Shown: piece by piece, positions 1,377 to 48,877 of the stretch
How positions within the stretch are numbered: the first letter of the stretch is position 1
Layout of the letters: each line of letters starts with the position of its first letter
DNA from: Chromohalobacter moromii
GTDB lineage: Bacteria > Pseudomonadota > Gammaproteobacteria > Pseudomonadales > Halomonadaceae
Length of the DNA stretch: 64,000 nucleotides
NCBI RefSeq assembly: GCF_023091865.1
Contig: NZ_JAHXDI010000003.1
Location: forward strand, 186,001 to 250,000
Direction of reading: 5' to 3'
Translations under genes and position numbers: made by a program
Notes under the pieces: generated by a model
The model's input: the letters and a program-made list of their open reading frames with translations, nothing else
Told to the model about the DNA's origin: nothing
Databases searched by the model: none

Positions 1377-2270
1377 ATGTCAGTCGCCATGCGCGAATTC
1401 GTGGCCAGGGTTTGGCCGGTGGCCATGCTGATCGTGGCAATGTGCTCCATCCAGACCGGGGCGTCCATCGCCAAGACCTTGTTTCCGGTCATCGGCGCCA
1501 CCGGCACGACCTCGATTCGCCTAATCCTCGCCGCGCTGATACTGCTGGTCGTGATGCGGCCCTGGCGCCAGCGGTTCAGCCGCCGTGCCTGGAAGTCGAC
1601 CGTGATCTACGGCGTCGCCCTGGGCGTCATGAACCTGCTGTTCTACCAGGCGCTACAGACGGTTCCGCTGGGGATCGCGGTGGCGCTGGAGTTCACCGGG
1701 CCGCTGACGGTGGCGATGCTCTCCTCGCGGCGTTGGCTGGACCTGCTGTGGGTGGCATTCGCCGTGCTCGGCCTGACATGTCTTCTGTTGCTGGGCGATG
1801 ACAGCAACGGCGCGGTCGATCCTTACGGCGCGGCCTGTGCGCTGGGAGCCGGCGTCTGCTGGGCGCTGTATATCCTGTTCGGACAAAAGGCAGGCTCGGT
1901 CAATGGCGCCCAGAGCGCCACGCTGGGCATCACCATCGCGGCGGTGGTGATCGCCCCCGTCGGTTTGATCGACGTCGGCCCGGCGATTTTCGCGCCGGAG
2001 GTCCTCCCGCTGGCACTCGCCGTCGCCGTGCTTTCCACCGCCCTGCCCTACACGCTCGAAATGGTGGCACTGCCGCGCCTGCCGACCCAGACCTTCGGCA
2101 CGCTGATGAGTCTGGAACCGGCGATCGGCGCGCTCTCCGGCCTGCTGTTCCTGAGCCAGCTTTTGAGTGGCCTGCAGTGGCTGGCCATCGGCCTGATCAT
2201 CGTCGCCTCGATCGGTACCACGCTGACGGTGCGCCGGCGCGATACCTTCGAGACGCCGGTACCGGACTGA
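1377..2270 (+). CDS. EamA/DMT transporter, RhtA-like threonine/homoserine exporter
   Basis: 297 residues with about ten hydrophobic helices and two EamA repeats (roughly residues 12-140 and 150-285). The sequence style (LFYQALQTVPLGIAVALEF followed by TGPL, and the LSTALPYTLEMVALPRLP stretch) is that of the RhtA branch, inner-membrane exporters of threonine and homoserine. An open frame extends far upstream, but the start at 1377 is chosen because AAAGGAGGTG lies just before it and it gives a normal family length. It is divergent from the XRE-cupin regulator, which probably controls it. Substrate is inferred from family resemblance only. Confidence 0.87.
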   Translation: MSVAMREFVARVWPVAMLIVAMCSIQTGASIAKTLFPVIGATGTTSIRLILAALILLVVMRPWRQRFSRRAWKSTVIYGVALGVMNLLFYQALQTVPLGIAVALEFTGPLTVAMLSSRRWLDLLWVAFAVLGLTCLLLLGDDSNGAVDPYGAACALGAGVCWALYILFGQKAGSVNGAQSATLGITIAAVVIAPVGLIDVGPAIFAPEVLPLALAVAVLSTALPYTLEMVALPRLPTQTFGTLMSLEPAIGALSGLLFLSQLLSGLQWLAIGLIIVASIGTTLTVRRRDTFETPVPD

Positions 2271-2277
2271 GAGGCCC

Positions 2278-2311
2278 GGCCGCTTGGGCGTCGTTTCAAG
2301 GCCCAGCGGCC
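2278..2311. terminator. Hairpin between convergent genes
   Basis: GGCCGCT(T)GGGC at 2278-2289 pairs with GCCCAGCGGCC at 2301-2311, leaving an 11-base loop. It lies between the convergent ends of the RhtA-like gene and the beta-lactamase gene and could end transcription from both sides, although no clear T-run follows on either strand. Confidence 0.45.
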
Positions 2312-2321
2312 CCCTAATGCC

Positions 2322-3488
2322 TTACGGCGTGTCGAGGACCCCGAGTTCGGACAGGATGCGGTAGGCTGCCTCGACGCGCGCGTCATTGGGATAGTTCTTG
2401 TTGGCCAGCATCACCAGCCCCGTCTGTTCGCCGGGAAGCATCACGAGGTAGCCGCCGAAGCCGTTGGTGGAGCCGGTCTTGTTGACCCAGACATCGTCGC
2501 GTGGCGCCTGCGGCGGCACGATCGCCTCGGCCGCGTTGGGCTCGAGGATCATGTCGTAACCGTTGCCGGCGCGCAGGGTATCGAGCGCCACGGGCAGCGG
2601 ATACTGCTCCCAGATCAGGGCCTGGGTCATGTCGCCGACCCGGTAATGGCCCTGGCGGGTCGCATCGATGGCCTGCTGAAGCTCGGCGTCGACATCCGCG
2701 AGATGCAGGTTGGCTCGCACCAGCCCGGCCAGATCGGCGGCCGTGGTCTTGAGCCCGTAGGCTTCGTCGTCGAGCACGCCGGGCGAGACACGGATCGGCT
2801 GGCCGTCCTTGGCCTCGCCCATGGCGTAGTGCGCCATGTGCGCCTCGGGAATATCGTACCAGGTGTCCCGCATGCCGAGCGGCGCCAGCACCTTGGCGCG
2901 CATCGTCGGCACGAATTCGCCCCCCAGGCTCGCCGCCGTCTCCAGCCCCAAAAGGCCGATCCCCAGGTTGGAATAGGTACGGCTCTCGCCGATGGGCTCG
3001 CTTGGCTGCCAGTCTCGATACCAGGTCATCAGCGATGCATGGTCGGTCACTTCGTCAGGCACGAACAGCGGCAGCCCGCCGCCGGTGTGAGTACCGAGGT
3101 TGCGCCCATCGATCCTGTCGAAGGCGCTGCCTTCGAGCTCAGGCAGGTAAAGGCTCACGGGCGCCTCGAGGTCGAGCTCGCCCTCGACGGCGGCCAACGA
3201 GGCCAGGGTCGCGGTCAATGTCTTGCTGAGCGAGCCGATCTCGAACAGGGTGTCGTCGTCGACCGGCGTGCCGGTCTCGCGGTTGGCGTCGCCGTAATGG
3301 GCGACCGTCGTGCCCTTCGGCCCGACGAGGGCGACCGCCATGCCGGGGATCTGCTGCGTCTCCATCAACGACGCGATGATGGGATCGAGCACCTCGCGAG
3401 CTTGCCTGTCCGGCGCGTCATCCTGCGCCAGTGCCACATTCCACCCACCCAGTAACGTCAGCGATACCCCCAGCAGCCACCCTTTCAT
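2322..3488 (-). CDS. Class C (AmpC-type) beta-lactamase
   Basis: 388 residues, the normal length for class C serine beta-lactamases, exported to the periplasm by a signal peptide (about residues 1-21, cleaving after ALA). The three active-site elements are in order: SLSK with nucleophile Ser86 and Lys89, YSN at 172-174, and KTG at 337-339. The [11 protein letters not shown] strand before the active site is typical too. The family hydrolyses cephalosporins; DD-peptidase relatives cannot be excluded from sequence alone, but the YSN motif, spacing and GFGGY after KTG favour AmpC. The start at 3488 has GGGAGCAGGA upstream and begins the signal peptide; a longer open frame exists. No ampR-like gene is adjacent, so inducibility is not suggested. 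Confidence 0.9.
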
Positions 3489-42663: not shown

Positions 42664-43590
42664 ATGCGTTACACACTGCGCCAACTCGAAGTCTTCGTCG
42701 CCATCGCGCAGCATGAAAGCGTGTCTCGCGCGGCACAGCGCCTGGCGATGTCGCAGTCCGCCACCAGCACCGCCCTCGCGGAGCTGGAGCGCCAATTCGA
42801 TTGCCAGTTGCTCGACCGCATCGGCAAGCGGCTCAAGCTCAATGCGCTGGGCTTTCAACTCCTGCCCAAGGCCGTGGCCCTGCTCGACCGCGGTGAGGAA
42901 ATCGAGGAGCTACTCAAGGGTCAGCGCGGCATCGGCTCGCTGGACGTCGGCGCGACGCTGACCATCGGCAATTACCTCGCCACCCTGCTGATCAGCGACT
43001 TCATGCGCCGCCACCCCGGGAGCCGGGTGCGCCTGCACGTGCGCAACACGGCCTCCATCGTCGACCGCATCACCCATCATGACCTGGACTTGGGGCTGAT
43101 TGAGGGCGACTGCCAACACGATGACATCGTCATGCAACCCTGGGTCGAGGACGAACTCACGGTCTTTTGTTCGCCGCGGCACCCTCTGGCCAACGCCGGC
43201 CAAGCGGATCTGGAAACGCTGATGGGCGAGGATTGGATCATGCGTGAGGAGGGCTCGGGAACGCGGCGTACGCTGGATCAAGCAATGCGCCACCGGCGTG
43301 GCCGGCTCAACGTACTGCTTGAGCTGGAGCATACCGAGGCCATCAAGCGCGCGGTGGAATCGGGACTCGGCATCGGCTGTGTTTCGCACCTGGCCCTGCG
43401 CGACGCCTTTCGGCGCGGTAGCCTGGTGCCCATCGCCACCCCTGAACTCGACCTGACGCGTCAGTTCACCTTCATCTGGCATCGCCACAAATACCTGACC
43501 ACCGCCATGCGCGAATTCTTGCGCCTGTGCCGCGAGATGACCGCCGGCGTCCAGCGCAGCGACGACATCGACCTGCCAGCCGTGCCTTAA
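42664..43590 (+). CDS. finR: LysR-family regulator FinR-like
   Basis: 308 residues. Winged helix at about residues 3-62 (LRQLEVFVAIAQHESVSRAA, QSATSTALAELERQFDCQLL), effector domain from about 90 to 292. Divergence from fpr and family style (GIGSLDVGATLTIGNYLATL) match FinR, which activates fpr. A GGAGAG site precedes the ATG. Its TAA stop at 43588-43590 is abutted by the target-site duplication of the insertion sequence, so the coding sequence is intact but its native downstream sequence is displaced by 3.4 kb. Confidence 0.88.
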   Translation: MRYTLRQLEVFVAIAQHESVSRAAQRLAMSQSATSTALAELERQFDCQLLDRIGKRLKLNALGFQLLPKAVALLDRGEEIEELLKGQRGIGSLDVGATLTIGNYLATLLISDFMRRHPGSRVRLHVRNTASIVDRITHHDLDLGLIEGDCQHDDIVMQPWVEDELTVFCSPRHPLANAGQADLETLMGEDWIMREEGSGTRRTLDQAMRHRRGRLNVLLELEHTEAIKRAVESGLGIGCVSHLALRDAFRRGSLVPIATPELDLTRQFTFIWHRHKYLTTAMREFLRLCREMTAGVQRSDDIDLPAVP

Positions 43591-43597
43591 ATCAAAA
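43590..43597 (+). repeat. 8-bp target-site duplication, left copy
   Basis: AATCAAAA directly before the left inverted repeat, identical to 46970-46977. Eight bases is the expected duplication for ISL3-family transposition. Confidence 0.95.
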
Positions 43598-43621
43598 GGG
43601 TAAGCGGATTAAATGGTTGAT
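43598..43621 (+). repeat. Left terminal inverted repeat of the ISPpu12-like element
   Basis: 24 bp beginning GGGTAAGCGGATTAAATGG. It differs from the reverse complement of the right end at three positions (6, 7 and 14). Confidence 0.95.
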
Positions 43622-43684
43622 CTTACCTTTGCATGAGAGTGAGACAGACCGGCATCTCATCGGATTATCTGGTTGATGCTTCAC

Positions 43685-44092
43685 CTACTGCTGGTGCATG
43701 TTTCCTTCGCTAATTCCAGCAAGAACCCCACACGCCTCAACTTCCCGGTCATCGTTGCAACTCGCTCTCAGTGAAACGAGTTGTTTCTCAAGCGCTTGCA
43801 GAGCGGTTATCTGCGACCGCACATGAGAGATGTGATCATCGAGCAAGGCGTTGACGGCGGTACAAGGCTGATGAGGGTCGTCCTGATAGCTCTGTAGTTC
43901 GTGAATCTCAGCCAGTGACAGGCCCAGGATTCTGCAGCGACGGATGAAGGCCAGCCCCTCACCATGCTTCTCGGTATAGACACGGTAACCGTTGTCCTGC
44001 CGATCAGGCGGCGGCAACAAGCCCTGCTGTTCATAGAAGCGGATCGTCTGTGTTTCGACCCCTACCAACTGCGCCAACTGACCAATGCGCAT
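43685..44092 (-). CDS. cadR: MerR-family Cd(II)/Pb(II)-responsive regulator (CadR/PbrR type)
   Basis: 135 residues: N-terminal MerR helix-turn-helix (RIGQLAQLVGVETQTIRFYE), dimerisation helix, and metal-binding cysteines at 77, 112 and 121. The 35- and 9-residue spacings equal those of PbrR Cys79, Cys114 and Cys123. The C-terminal EACGVLAGISEGNMHQQ is typical of the CadR/PbrR group. It probably represses and, with metal, activates the divergent transporter gene by untwisting its 19-bp-spaced promoter. GGAGGAGG precedes the ATG. It is cargo of the insertion sequence. Confidence 0.92.
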   Translation of the reverse strand: MRIGQLAQLVGVETQTIRFYEQQGLLPPPDRQDNGYRVYTEKHGEGLAFIRRCRILGLSLAEIHELQSYQDDPHQPCTAVNALLDDHISHVRSQITALQALEKQLVSLRASCNDDREVEACGVLAGISEGNMHQQ

Positions 44093-44123
44093 CAGCCTCC
44101 TCCCCAACGGATTCTTTACTCTA

Positions 44124-44154
44124 TTGACCTTATAGTAGCTTTATAGTTTTAAAT
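44124..44154 (+). promoter_or_regulatory. MerR-type promoter with 19-bp spacer for the transporter gene
   Basis: -35 TTGACC (44124-44129) and -10 TTAAAT (44149-44154) are separated by 19 bp, the over-long spacer that MerR activators correct. The spacer contains the dyad-like TTATAGTAGCTTTATAG, the expected regulator operator. Confidence 0.75.
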
Positions 44155-44187
44155 GGTACCACAACATTGTTCAAGTGGAGTCGTATC

Positions 44188-45084
44188 ATGAGCAAATCCT
44201 GTGGTGGCGCCTGTGGCGGTGATGCAACGTCCGCAGCGGATACCGATATACAGGCCTCCTCCGAGGCGCCAGGGAGATGGGTCAGTGTTTATGCCGTGCC
44301 GAAGATGGACTGTCCATCAGAAGAACGAATGATTCGCCTAGCCCTGAACGGCTTTGAGGAGATTCGGGCGCTGTCCTTCGACTTGTCGAACCGCCGGCTG
44401 AAGGTCGTGCATGACGGCGAGGTCGAGCCCGTCACCTCGAAACTGAAGACCTTGGGGCTAGGCGCCTCGCTTCAGGAAACCGTCGCTGCAAATCCGGAGA
44501 CCATCAAGGCCGCCGAGTTTTCGGCAGCTTCTGCTAAGCAAGAATCCGGGACCCTGCGCTGGTTGCTCGGCATCAATGCACTTCTGTTCGTGGTGGAAAT
44601 GACTGCCGGTCTGATCGCCCAGTCCACCGGCCTGATTGGAGAATCCCTGGACAATTTTGCCGATGCGGCGGTGTACGGGCTTGCCCTTTATGCGGTTGGA
44701 CATAGCGTGAAAATGCAGGTACGTGCCGCGCATCTTGCTGGTGTACTGCAACTGATCTTGGCTGTGGGCGTGCTCGTAGAGGTGGTGAGACGCTTTGTAT
44801 TCGGTAGTGAGCCTGAATCGCTGGTGATGATGGCTATCGCATTCGTCGCATTGATTGCCAATACCAGTTGTCTGCTGCTCATATCCAAACATCGGGAAGG
44901 CGGGGCGCACATGAAGGCAAGCTGGATATTCTCGGCCAACGACGTGGTGATCAACCTGGGGGTCATCACCGCCGGCGCCCTGGTCGCGTGGACCGGTTCC
45001 AATTATCCGGATCTGATTATCGGCACCATCGCGGGGGGCATTGTACTTAACGGTGCCAGACGCATTTTGGCGTTGAAGGGTTAA
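44188..45084 (+). CDS. Heavy-metal cation transporter with N-terminal HMA-like domain and CDF-like membrane domain
   Basis: 298 residues. The N-terminus has CGGACGG (Cys5, Cys9) and, from about residue 33 to 105, a heavy-metal-associated-like fold with the MDCPSEE motif (Cys42). From about 125 on come six membrane helices of cation diffusion facilitator type: GESLDNFADAAVYGLALYAV in helix 2 and FSANDVVINLGVITAGALV in helix 5. The classical HxxxD metal sites of CDF proteins are changed (Asp/Asn/Asp and Asn-Asp), so the ion path may be atypical. It likely exports Cd, Pb or Zn. GTGGAG precedes the ATG at 44188; a start 21 bases earlier is weaker. Confidence 0.85.
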   Translation: MSKSCGGACGGDATSAADTDIQASSEAPGRWVSVYAVPKMDCPSEERMIRLALNGFEEIRALSFDLSNRRLKVVHDGEVEPVTSKLKTLGLGASLQETVAANPETIKAAEFSAASAKQESGTLRWLLGINALLFVVEMTAGLIAQSTGLIGESLDNFADAAVYGLALYAVGHSVKMQVRAAHLAGVLQLILAVGVLVEVVRRFVFGSEPESLVMMAIAFVALIANTSCLLLISKHREGGAHMKASWIFSANDVVINLGVITAGALVAWTGSNYPDLIIGTIAGGIVLNGARRILALKG

Positions 45085-45087
45085 ATA

Positions 45088-45600
45088 ATGCTCATTATTG
45101 GCAAAAAGCTCTCGCCGTATGCCCTATTGTCCATATCGGGCCTGCTGGCAGCGTCTGATCAGGCTGTAAAGTGGCTGGTGCAGCAATCAATGGCCTATGG
45201 CGAGTATGTTTCGGTGACCCCGTTCTTTAACTGGGTGCACCTATGGAACACCGGTGCCGCATTCAGTCTTTTTGCGAATGGTGGAGGCTGGCAGCGCTAC
45301 TTTTTTATCGGAATCGCGGTAGTGGTCTCGATTTTTCTGATCAAGCTGATCCTTGAAAATCGTCATAAAGGAGAAGCCATCGCTTACAGTCTTATCCTCG
45401 GTGGCGCCATGGGCAACCTGATTGACCGGGTCTTTCGCGGCTATGTTGTGGATTCCTTTGATTTCTATTGGCGAGACTGGCATTGGCCGGCCTTCAACCT
45501 GGCTGATATTGCAATTGTCCTCGGTGCCTTACTTTTCGTTTCCAGCAGCTTGTTGGGTAAAAAAGCAGACACCAATGCCGAGCCGGATGGATCTGACTGA
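45088..45600 (+). CDS. lspA: Signal peptidase II (lipoprotein signal peptidase), IS-borne
   Basis: 170 residues, four membrane helices. The two catalytic Asp lie in GNLIDRVFRGYVVDSFDF and FNLADIAIVLGALLF. LspA cuts prolipoproteins before the lipidated Cys and is normally a single housekeeping gene; an accessory copy travels with lead/cadmium resistance (as with PbrC in pbr operons). It starts three bases after the transporter stop. What it processes here is unknown, since no lipoprotein is in the element. Confidence 0.93.
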   Translation: MLIIGKKLSPYALLSISGLLAASDQAVKWLVQQSMAYGEYVSVTPFFNWVHLWNTGAAFSLFANGGGWQRYFFIGIAVVVSIFLIKLILENRHKGEAIAYSLILGGAMGNLIDRVFRGYVVDSFDFYWRDWHWPAFNLADIAIVLGALLFVSSSLLGKKADTNAEPDGSD

Positions 45601-45621
45601 CACCTACGCCTATACAACACC

Positions 45622-46911
45622 ATGACCGAACTTCCCGACAACATCCTTCACCTGCCGCAATACCAAGTACTGGGCTGCAAATCAACCGACGACGAAATGC
45701 ACTTCCAGGTGGACGTGCCCGATCCCATCGCCTGCGAGGAATGCGGCGTGCAGGGTGAGTTCGTACGGTTCGGCAAGCGTGACGTTCCCTATCGTGATCT
45801 GCCTATCCACGGCAAGCGGGTCACTCTCTGGGTGGTCCGCCGCCGATACACCTGCCGGGCCTGCAAGACAACATTCAGGCCCCAGCTACCGGAGATGGTG
45901 GACGGATTCCGTATGACACTGCGGCTGCATGAGTACGTGGAGAAGGAATCCTTCAACCACCCCTACACCTTTGTGGCGGCACAGACCGGCCTGGACGAGA
46001 AGACGGTGCGCGACATCTTCAACGCCCGCGCCGAGTTCCTGGGGCGCTGGCACCGCTTCGAGACGCCCCGCATCCTGGGCATTGACGAGCTATACCTGAA
46101 CAAGCGCTACCGCTGCATTCTGACCAACATTGAGGAGCGAACCCTGCTCGACCTGCTGGCCACCCGCCGCCAGGACGTGGTGACCAACTACCTGATGAAG
46201 CTGAAAGACCGGCAGAAGGTCGAGATCGTCAGCATGGACATGTGGAACCCCTACCGGGCAGCGGTCAAGGCTGTGCTGCCCCAGGCCCGTATCGTGGTCG
46301 ATAAGTTCCATGTGGTGCGCATGGCCAACGATGCCCTAGAGAGAGTGCGCAAGGGCCTCAGAAAGGAGCTGAAACCGTCCCAGAGCCGGACTCTCAAGGG
46401 AGACCGGAAAATCCTGCTGAAACGCGCTCACGAAGTCTCAGACCGGGAGCGCCTCATCATGGAGACCTGGACAGGCGCGTTCCCGCAACTGCTGGCCGCC
46501 TACGAGCACAAGGAGCGCTTCTACGGCATCTGGGACGCCACCACACGGCTCCAGGCAGAAGCCGCCCTGGACGAGTGGATAGCCACCATCCCGAAGGGCC
46601 AAAAGGAAGTCTGGAGCGATCTGGTCAGGGCAGTGGGAAACTGGCGCGAAGAGACCATGACCTACTTCGAGACGGACATGCCCGTCACCAACGCTTACAC
46701 GGAGTCCATCAACCGACTGGCCAAGGACAAGAACCGTGAAGGGCGCGGTTACTCCTTCGAGGTGATGCGGGCACGAATGCTCTACACCACGAAGCACAAG
46801 AAGAAGGCACCGACTGCGAAGGTCTCTCCTTTCTACAAGAAAACCATCGGTTACGGACTGCCGGACTTCGCAGAGGAACTCAACTACGGAGTCGATCTAT
46901 CAACCATCTGA
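45622..46911 (+). CDS. tnpA: ISL3-family transposase
   Basis: 429 residues. N-terminal Zn-finger-like Cys pairs (CEECG; CRACK) and a helix-turn-helix precede the DDE domain: first Asp in ILGIDELYLNK, second in RIVVDKFHVVRMAND, and the Glu in TNAYTESINRLAKDKNREGR. This is the ISL3 (ISPpu12) type, which cuts and pastes the element and duplicates 8 bp. The frame is intact. It ends 34 bases before the right inverted repeat. The ribosome site is weak. Confidence 0.96.
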   Translation: MTELPDNILHLPQYQVLGCKSTDDEMHFQVDVPDPIACEECGVQGEFVRFGKRDVPYRDLPIHGKRVTLWVVRRRYTCRACKTTFRPQLPEMVDGFRMTLRLHEYVEKESFNHPYTFVAAQTGLDEKTVRDIFNARAEFLGRWHRFETPRILGIDELYLNKRYRCILTNIEERTLLDLLATRRQDVVTNYLMKLKDRQKVEIVSMDMWNPYRAAVKAVLPQARIVVDKFHVVRMANDALERVRKGLRKELKPSQSRTLKGDRKILLKRAHEVSDRERLIMETWTGAFPQLLAAYEHKERFYGIWDATTRLQAEAALDEWIATIPKGQKEVWSDLVRAVGNWREETMTYFETDMPVTNAYTESINRLAKDKNREGRGYSFEVMRARMLYTTKHKKKAPTAKVSPFYKKTIGYGLPDFAEELNYGVDLSTI

Positions 46912-46945
46912 GGGTGGTATCAGATTGATGGGGTGAAGGTGCCCC

Positions 46946-46969
46946 ATCAACCATTAAATCCGTATACCC
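46946..46969 (-). repeat. Right terminal inverted repeat of the ISPpu12-like element
   Basis: 24 bp; its reverse complement begins GGGTATACGGATTTAATGG and matches the left repeat at 21 positions. Confidence 0.95.
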
Positions 46970-46977
46970 AATCAAAA
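46970..46977 (+). repeat. 8-bp target-site duplication, right copy
   Basis: AATCAAAA, identical to the left copy at 43590-43597. It continues into the A-run (T-run on the minus strand) of the next terminator. Confidence 0.95.
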
Positions 46978-47003
46978 AAGCCCACCGGCGTATGCCGATG
47001 GGC
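46974..47003 (-). terminator. Terminator of the chemotaxis receptor gene
   Basis: Read on the minus strand: GCCCATCGGC (47003-46994), loop ATAC, GCCGGTGGGC (46989-46980), then six T. The stem has one mismatch. The insertion sequence abuts the T-run, keeping the hairpin intact. Confidence 0.85.
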
Positions 47004-47035
47004 CGTGGTGGAAAGAAGTGGAGAGATTGCGTGGC

Positions 47036-48877
47036 CTAGGACTTGGTCAACGCCGGGCGTGTCTGCGAGTGCCCGTCCTCGCGCAGGCTGAAACGGCCCA
47101 CGACCTCGGCTAGACGCGAGGCTTGGTCACGCATCTGCTCGGCGGCGACGGTGGATTCCTCGACCATCGAGGCGTTGTGCTGGGTCATTTGATCCAGGTC
47201 ATTGACGGCCTGGTTGACTTGGGTCACGCCTTGGCTTTGCTCCTGCGTGGCAGCATTGATCTCGGCGAGGACGTCGGAGACCCGCGCCACGGCAGTGACG
47301 ATTTCCTGCATGCTGTCACCCGCCATGCGCACCATGTCGGTCCCCTCGCGGGTCTGGGTCACCGAGGCGTCAATCAGCTTCTTGATATCATCAGCCGCCG
47401 AGGCCGAGCGGCTCGCCAGTTGGCGCACCTCATTGGCGACCACCGCGAAACCGCGACCCTGCTCGCCAGCGCGCGCCGCCTCGACCGAGGCATTGAGCGC
47501 GAGAAGGTTGGTCTGGAAGGCAATCTCGTCGATCAAGCGCACGATATCGGAAATCTGCGTCGTCTGGGCATTGACCTCTTCCATGGTATCGACCGCCTTG
47601 CGTGCGATCTCCCCACCATGATTGGCCGCAGTGGTTGCCTCTTGGGAGAGTTGGTCGGCCTGATTGGCAGAATGCGCGGTATTTTCCACCGTGCTGGCAA
47701 TCTGCTCCATGGCAGTAGACGTTTCCTGCAAGCTGGAAGCCGCCTGTTCGGTACGTCGCGAGAGATCCTGGCTGCCGTGGGCGATTTCGCTGGAGGCCTC
47801 GCTCACCGAGGTACTGCTGGCACGGACTGCGAGCAGTACGTCGTTGACGGCATCGGCGAAGCCATTGAAGCCTTGGGCGATTTGCGCCACTTCGTCGCGG
47901 CCGTCGATCTCGAGCCTTCGTGTTAGATCGCCTTCGCCGGAGGCGATATCGAACATGGCATCACGCGCCAAGCGCAGGCGCCGGAAGACGGGGGAAAGTA
48001 GCGCCCACAGCAGCAAGGCGGCAATCAGGCCGGACAAGACCATCGCGATGAGCGTGGAATGCAGCACGCCTTGCACGCCGGCGTTGGCTTCGGCGAGGTC
48101 CAACGCGATGATCAAGCGCCAGTCGGTTTCCGGCACTGTCACAGCATACAACAGGACCTCGCGGCCATTGATGGTGGCTTCTTTGGGGCTCCCCTCGCGC
48201 GCCAGCGTGTCCAGCCATTCCGGTGTCAGGCTATCGTCCAGCGTCGTTGCTGGCTCCAAAGCCAGGTCGGCATCACGATAGGCGATGATATCGCTGTCGC
48301 GGTTGACCAGCAGCGCGAAGCTGGCATCGGTGGGATGAATCGAGGTCACGTTTTCAGTCACGTCAGCCAGGCTAACATCGGCGCCGATCACAGCCTGGGC
48401 CTCACCGTCCTCAATGACCGGCGTGGCGAACGCGACCACCAGGCTGTCGGTCACCATGTCCAGATAAGGCGGACTGACCACCGTATCGCCGGTTTCCACG
48501 GCCGATTGATACCAGGGGCGCTGGGTGGGATCGTAATCCTCGGGAGGCTGCCAGTTATCGTTGGTGATCAAGCGCTTGTCCGGCAGGCCGACATAGACCT
48601 GACTGAAGCCGCCGGCCGCGGCGGTCTGCTGCAAGGCAGGAACGAAGTCGTCGTTCTCGAGCGCCGGGGGCAGCGCCTCGGTCAGGCGCTTCTTGCTCAC
48701 GGCCCAGTCTTCGATTGCATCGACATGGCCGCGCGCCACGGCGCTCAGCGTATCGATATTGGTCGTGCGCTGATGCTGACTCACCAGCCAGTAACTGACG
48801 CCGCCGGTCGCGGCCAAGGCGACCAGGATCATGGCGACGCAGGCCACCATGATCCGGGTGCGAAACGATGTGAACAT
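47036..48877 (-). CDS. Methyl-accepting chemotaxis protein with Cache sensor domain
   Basis: 613 residues. TM1 about 7-29; extracytoplasmic dCache-type domain about 32-275 ([20 protein letters not shown] and GADVSLADV are characteristic); TM2 about 278-300; HAMP about 300-352; then the signalling coiled coil with the conserved hairpin tip [20 protein letters not shown] then [18 protein letters not shown]. Length of 613 and the domain order are standard. It senses a small ligand, perhaps an amino or organic acid, and controls CheA. Start at 48877 has no strong ribosome site. Confidence 0.95.

Follow-up and report, generated by a model that had tools for sequence, protein, structure and literature searches.

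A recently inserted, complete copy of ISPpu12 in Chromohalobacter moromii, with metal-response cargo that probably serves in part to control transposition

The subject of this analysis is a mobile element of the ISL3 family in Chromohalobacter moromii, located in a 64,000-nucleotide stretch of contig NZ_JAHXDI010000003.1 (hereafter the window, whose own numbering is used throughout). The element holds four intact genes, encoding a CadR/PbrR regulator, a cation-efflux (CDF) protein, signal peptidase II and an ISL3 transposase, and their order, with a divergent regulator followed by the cation transporter, lspA and tnpA, is that of ISPpu12/Tn6018 (Table 1). An initial annotation, made from the letters of the window alone, had proposed exact ends with 24-bp inverted repeats differing at three positions and a perfect 8-bp duplication, and both were recovered as described, with 21 of 24 bases matched between the ends and AATCAAAA repeated on either side. 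When pairs of window positions were drawn at random 200,000 times, none gave an inverted match with three or fewer mismatches over 24 bases (the minimum was 7) and eight were identical over 8 bases, which rules out a chance origin of these features. The transposase scored above the cut-offs of the Pfam domains PF01610, PF14690 and PF13542 (ISL3 DDE transposase, zinc ribbon and helix-turn-helix (HTH)) and reached 298.8 bits against NF033550 (cut-off 180).

Table 1 Features of the element and of its insertion site, in window positions
Feature	Position	Strand	Basis
ISPpu12 (Tn6018) element, 3372 bp, ISL3 family	43598..46969	+	sequence and match to the pWW0 copy
Left 8-bp target duplication copy, AATCAAAA	43590..43597	.	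sequence
Right 8-bp target duplication copy, AATCAAAA	46970..46977	.	sequence
Left terminal inverted repeat, 24 bp	43598..43621	+	21/24 matched to right end
Right terminal inverted repeat, 24 bp	46946..46969	-	21/24 matched to left end
cadR-like MerR regulator, 135 aa	43685..44092	-	TIGR02047 CadR-PbrR, 206.4 bits against a cut-off of 151.45
MerR-type promoter, TTGACC, 19-nt spacer, TTAAAT	44124..44154	+	95-bp cadR-CDF spacer
CDF-family transporter-like protein, 298 aa	44188..45084	+	Pfam Cation_efflux; weak N-terminal HMA-like match below cut-off
lspA, signal peptidase II, 170 aa	45088..45600	+	family profiles; alignment to solved structures
tnpA, ISL3-family transposase, 429 aa, open reading frame intact	45622..46911	+	family profiles
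Terminator-like hairpin of the downstream chemoreceptor gene, outside the element	46979..47004	-	sequence; T-tract kept by the right duplication copy

The initial annotation had also likened the length and gene order to those of ISPpu12, and with the record of plasmid pWW0 used directly as the reference (NC_003350, L083:34397-37768) we measured 99.466% identity over 3372 bp, with 18 substitutions and no gaps. A published table entry for ISPpu12 likewise gives 3372 bp and inverted repeats matched at 21 of 24 positions (PMC3056050), and Tn6018 appears as another name of the same element (PMC5561048). On its sequence the element is ISPpu12, an assignment made without reserve, and this copy is complete and probably active. 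ISPpu12 as such is already known, and the copy in the window can be set against three described systems. It shares its length, its 21/24 repeats and its gene order with ISPpu12 of pWW0 (Williams et al. 2002, cited in PMC3056050), but 14 of the 18 substitutions fall within element positions 294-370, inside cadR, and the pWW0 copy lacks the matching 8-bp flanks that the window copy has. This clustering implies local mosaicism in either the pWW0 copy or the common form, with the cadR patch having arisen by recombination in the one or the other. The isoform ISPpu12a from Pseudomonas of the Lubin mine, compared here by its description, is likewise a 3372-bp ISL3 element with an identical gene set (PMC4133298, PMC4447125), and its capture on a trap plasmid shows it to be mobile (PMC4133298, PMC4447125). 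The composite transposon DEH of Pseudomonas sp. PP3 is itself made of ISPpu12 copies, two of which enclose dehalogenase genes, whereas the window holds one copy and no captured genes (PMC12060670).

In the regulator, Cys77, Cys112 and Cys121 are kept in all 42 aligned sequences (27 distinct, the window counted), and the cadR-like gene of an ISPpu12 isoform is reportedly named tnpR. The CDF protein belongs to its superfamily by the Pfam Cation_efflux profile (52.2 bits against a cut-off of 26.6), but scored 58.8 against TIGR01297, under the cut-off of 82.35. Canonical Zn/Cd exporters of the CDF family have a His-x3-Asp motif in transmembrane helix 5 (TM5), whose His binds metal, together with a C-terminal cytoplasmic domain, and the present protein departs from this pattern: its Cation_efflux match runs to residue 294 of 298 and leaves no room for a further, C-terminal cytoplasmic domain, and Phe occupies the usual TM5 His position (set by alignment to the DmeF-like protein of locus L147) in 22 of 22 diverged homologues, or 23 of 23 with the window. 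The two Asp residues in TM2 are kept in all 22 of these homologues. A PDB sequence search with the CDF protein returned a single match, at E 0.21. LspA aligned with solved signal peptidase II across both conserved Asp regions, which are catalytic in this enzyme, and may mature lipoproteins.

Pairwise Nei-Gojobori ratios of nonsynonymous to synonymous substitution (dN/dS), taken over homologues with dS of 0.19-0.85, were 0.12-0.28 for cadR, 0.10-0.25 for the CDF gene and 0.18-0.34 for lspA, compared with 0.05-0.11 for tnpA (three comparisons only), and these low values point to purifying selection on the three cargo genes.

The layout of the element suggests how cargo and transposase could be connected. 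The CDF gene, lspA and tnpA are co-directional, with gaps of 3 bp between the CDF gene and lspA and 21 bp between lspA and tnpA, and the spacer in front of them carries a MerR-type promoter. Its TTGAC recurs without change in all 25 distinct spacers between cadR and the CDF gene, and 18 of these spacers adjoin a cadR less than 98.5% identical. No sigma-70-like site with 16-18 spacing was found in 43400-47200. A 2010 study by Christie-Oleza is said, by its title, to show that TnpR regulates how two ISL3 elements transpose following conjugative interaction. In the mechanism that we propose, the cadR-like regulator (TnpR) would sense a thiophilic metal via Cys77, Cys112 and Cys121 and would switch the overlong MerR-type promoter, from which the CDF gene, lspA and tnpA would be transcribed as a single operon; the sensor would thereby gate transposition, and metal would presumably induce it. 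Taken together, the one-operon layout and the literature on control by TnpR suggest that what the initial annotation called metal-response cargo probably acts, at least partly, as a control unit of transposition.

We hold it highly probable overall that the window carries a recently acquired, complete ISPpu12 in which a regulator-switched operon includes tnpA and in which the CDF protein is atypical and probably not a Cd/Zn/Co efflux pump. Several points weigh against this interpretation. The argument from the metal site of the CDF protein is one of alignment alone, and transport of another metal is possible; purifying selection, moreover, shows that the protein has some function. The dN/dS values are themselves limited by exchange of modules between elements, as in the copy at L073, where dS is 0 in lspA and 0.26 in the CDF gene. 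The absence of a sigma-70-like site carries little weight, as shuffled sequences average 2.4 such sites (standard deviation 1.7), and the inducer named in the 2010 title is reportedly conjugative interaction, not metal.

One alternative is that of a plain resistance transposon, in which CadR would induce a working Cd/Zn/Co efflux pump together with LspA and tnpA would merely lie downstream. The family matches to CDF and CadR-PbrR speak for it, as do the purifying selection on the cargo and the existence of cadR-CDF-lspA cassettes without an adjoining intact ISPpu12 transposase (L219, L220, L221). Against such a role stand the replacement of the TM5 His in all 22 diverged homologues and the published behaviour of ISPpu12a, whose module raised tolerance to Cd, Co or Zn in none of the transconjugants tested, lowered it in a few cases and was judged to be one that "probably was inactive" (PMC4447125). 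The Phe at the TM5 position fits this published lack of resistance, and the claim of the initial annotation that the cargo provides metal resistance is accordingly not borne out for the isoform in which it was assayed (PMC4447125). We regard the resistance transposon as unlikely, and the CDF protein, to judge from its alignment, as a conserved, atypical transporter that is probably not a Cd/Zn/Co efflux pump. The cassettes of L219, L220 and L221, which share 80-92% protein identity with the cargo, are possible sources of it.

From the matches listed in the family and order searches, 12 that covered tnpA only (L266-L277) were picked and examined with their upstream DNA. A matching pair of ends was present at nine of the 12 loci, seven of these with a perfect 8-bp duplication; the second end was not found in L273, L276 and L277. 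Elements with tnpA only had been considered as an ancestor of ISPpu12, a candidate that was rejected since, wherever both ends were found, such matches proved to be elements with other cargo. The seven siblings with a perfect duplication have ends like those of ISPpu12, transposases 74-97% identical to its own, and different cargo. One of 4918 bp (L266:8171-13088, genome G226, duplication AAAATTAT) carries LysR, flavin oxidoreductase, pirin and isochorismatase genes leading into tnpA, and matched no plasmid record with at least 80% coverage. Another of 3125 bp (L267:6414-9538, G197, perfect duplication GGATTTAG) carries a dmeF-type Co/Ni exporter and a metal-sensing repressor, with an ISPpu12-type transposase (97% at the amino-acid level); an element of the same type lies at L272:789-3955 (G1000), where the duplication differs at one of eight bases. 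A third, of 5142 bp (L269:1980-7121, G126, duplication CGAATTTG), carries merR, merT, merP, merF and merA, with merR pointing toward tnpA and the mer operon away from it; it is 100% identical on three Halomonas plasmids, two of sp. THAF12 and one of HAL1, and 97.9% identical on a Paracoccus plasmid (plasmid records H46-H49). The remaining cargo comprises an ABC ATPase (L270) and LysR with AzlCD (L271), both with a broken tnpA, HTH-cupin, LysE, DHDPS-family and YgjV-like proteins (L274), and MFS and CMD-family proteins (L275, where the scan covered part of the genes). In a possible further element of 6552 bp (L268:4590-11141, G700), whose flanking duplication is off by one, a transposase 99% identical is preceded by a P-type metal ATPase and an MFS protein along with a MerR-like match.

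The cargo of the siblings is thus diverse, spanning mercury, cobalt/nickel, amino-acid export and oxidoreductase functions. A regulator was among the genes examined in five of the seven, in L269 by a MerR match and the plasmid annotation. The transposase follows the cargo co-directionally in L266, L271, L274 and L275, and in L267, L269 and L270 the cargo operon is oriented away from the transposase; with orientation mixed in this way, joint transcription of the two is not a general rule among the siblings. One could picture an ISL3 transposon family, ISPpu12 among its members, with exchangeable cargo of a sensor plus an exporter or detoxification function placed between the left end and a related transposase at the right end, in which the stress sensor would also gate that transposase and a toxicant would trigger defence and mobility together; we offer this as a tentative idea and think it on balance doubtful. 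A literature search on ISL3 with passenger, cargo or mercury, whose reach did not extend to most subscription journals or to ISfinder, listed no title on the sibling group, and no priority is claimed for it.

The element sits between two converging genes, a LysR-type gene (42664-43590, + strand) and a chemoreceptor gene (47036-48877, - strand), and the duplicated AATCAAAA belongs to the T-tract of the terminator-like hairpin of the latter. The right copy of the duplication keeps this T-tract, so that both adjoining genes were left intact by the insertion. ISL3 elements generate 8-bp, AT-rich target duplications, and this was also the pattern among the full-length copies: a perfect 8-bp duplication flanks 66 of 88 distinct insertion sites, and the guanine-plus-cytosine (GC) content averages 20% in the 66 duplications compared with 55% in their flanks. 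Position -2 is T at 40 of the 66 sites, and position +2 is A at 35. By an open reading frame heuristic, 31 of 65 sites were intergenic, compared with 31% of GC-matched control positions.

Whether ISPpu12 specifically targets intrinsic terminators, as its place in a terminator here could indicate, was assessed against two sets of controls. A strong hairpin adjoins nine of 65 perfect-duplication sites (the window, which prompted the test, being included in the count), compared with 4.7% of GC-matched controls, and against intergenic GC-matched controls the excess held at two laxer cut-offs (8/31, p 0.018; 6/31, p 0.034) but not at two stricter ones (p 0.06 and 0.15). Four cut-offs were tried in all, and most of the excess is explained by the preference for AT together with survival between genes. 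The three- to four-fold excess over GC-matched controls having turned borderline with intergenic ones, we do not take terminator targeting as established and consider it quite improbable; a literature search on insertion sequences, terminators and target preference found no paper. The site is best explained by a recent ISL3-type transposition that placed ISPpu12 in a terminator region, at an AT-rich target of 8 bp.

The timing of this insertion can be read from the host and its congeners. A check for further copies, as the initial annotation had suggested, gave a single match in the host's own 3.47-Mb assembly (6 contigs). The insertion is not fixed among relatives: in eight of nine congeners the LysR-side and chemoreceptor-side flanks lie no more than 24 bases apart with no element between them, and in two of these (G002 and G003, the latter with a chemoreceptor-side match of only 39 bases) the alignments of the two flanks have exactly 8 bases in common, a single AATCAAAA, as expected of an empty site. 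The ninth (G009, L089/L292) is uninformative, since its sequence, close to a contig end, becomes unrelated immediately past the stop of the LysR gene. Together, the perfect duplication, the single copy and the empty site with one AATCAAAA in two congeners indicate that the insertion is recent. That the copy has instead long resided in the genus through vertical inheritance, as another full-length copy in G006 (one of the nine congeners) and copies cut at contig ends in G001 and G003 might suggest, is highly implausible, given that no congener has the element at this place, that the G006 copy sits in a different target (CTAAATTC) and that just 2-5 bases distinguish it from the Thalassospira and Paraburkholderia copies.

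Searches across genome and plasmid collections showed where else the element occurs (single full-length matches were counted, and the family, class and order samples all include the host's own genome). Within the family, 29 of 275 genomes had a full-length match, as did 18 of 390 sampled evenly across the order and 2 of 369 sampled evenly across the class. The host was predicted to be a member of the Halomonadaceae, which holds for the genus Chromohalobacter, but the accompanying view that such an element would be unusual there does not: ISPpu12 is common in the family, and its presence in Chromohalobacter is thus ordinary. Species genomes held at least 80 loci, and among the matches listed 63 were full copies, 51 of these at least 99.5% identical. 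The window copy is 2 bases away from the closest among the matches listed, which come from Vreelandella, Alloalcanivorax and Thalassospira; the Thalassospira copies have 2-5 mismatches and the Paraburkholderia copy 3, so that near-identical copies span gamma-, beta- and alphaproteobacteria. Recent horizontal spread of ISPpu12 between distant hosts, which the initial annotation had deduced, is strongly supported.

Plasmid records with a match numbered 476, of which 203 covered at least 80% of the element, and ISPpu12 was annotated at the match in 35 of 40 plasmid records among the matches listed. In complete E. coli genomes a match was present in 177 of 5426, with at least 80% coverage in 19. 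No match was found among 50,697 phage records in a near-mode search; the left end of the element was found in two viral-contig stretches. Pseudomonas bharatica CSV86 (G1011, L008) holds at least 18 full copies of ISPpu12 and many partial ones (40 of 230 candidates scored), together with a second ISL3 element, also in many copies, that shares positions 2133-3372 at 99%.

Chromohalobacter is therefore one more host genus for a widespread mobile unit that is also present on many enterobacterial plasmids. The siblings suggest that sensor-plus-effector cargo ahead of a transposase is common in this ISL3 group and no curiosity of ISPpu12, and, if the metal-sensing regulator does drive the transposase, the spread of genes by ISPpu12 would rise under metal exposure.

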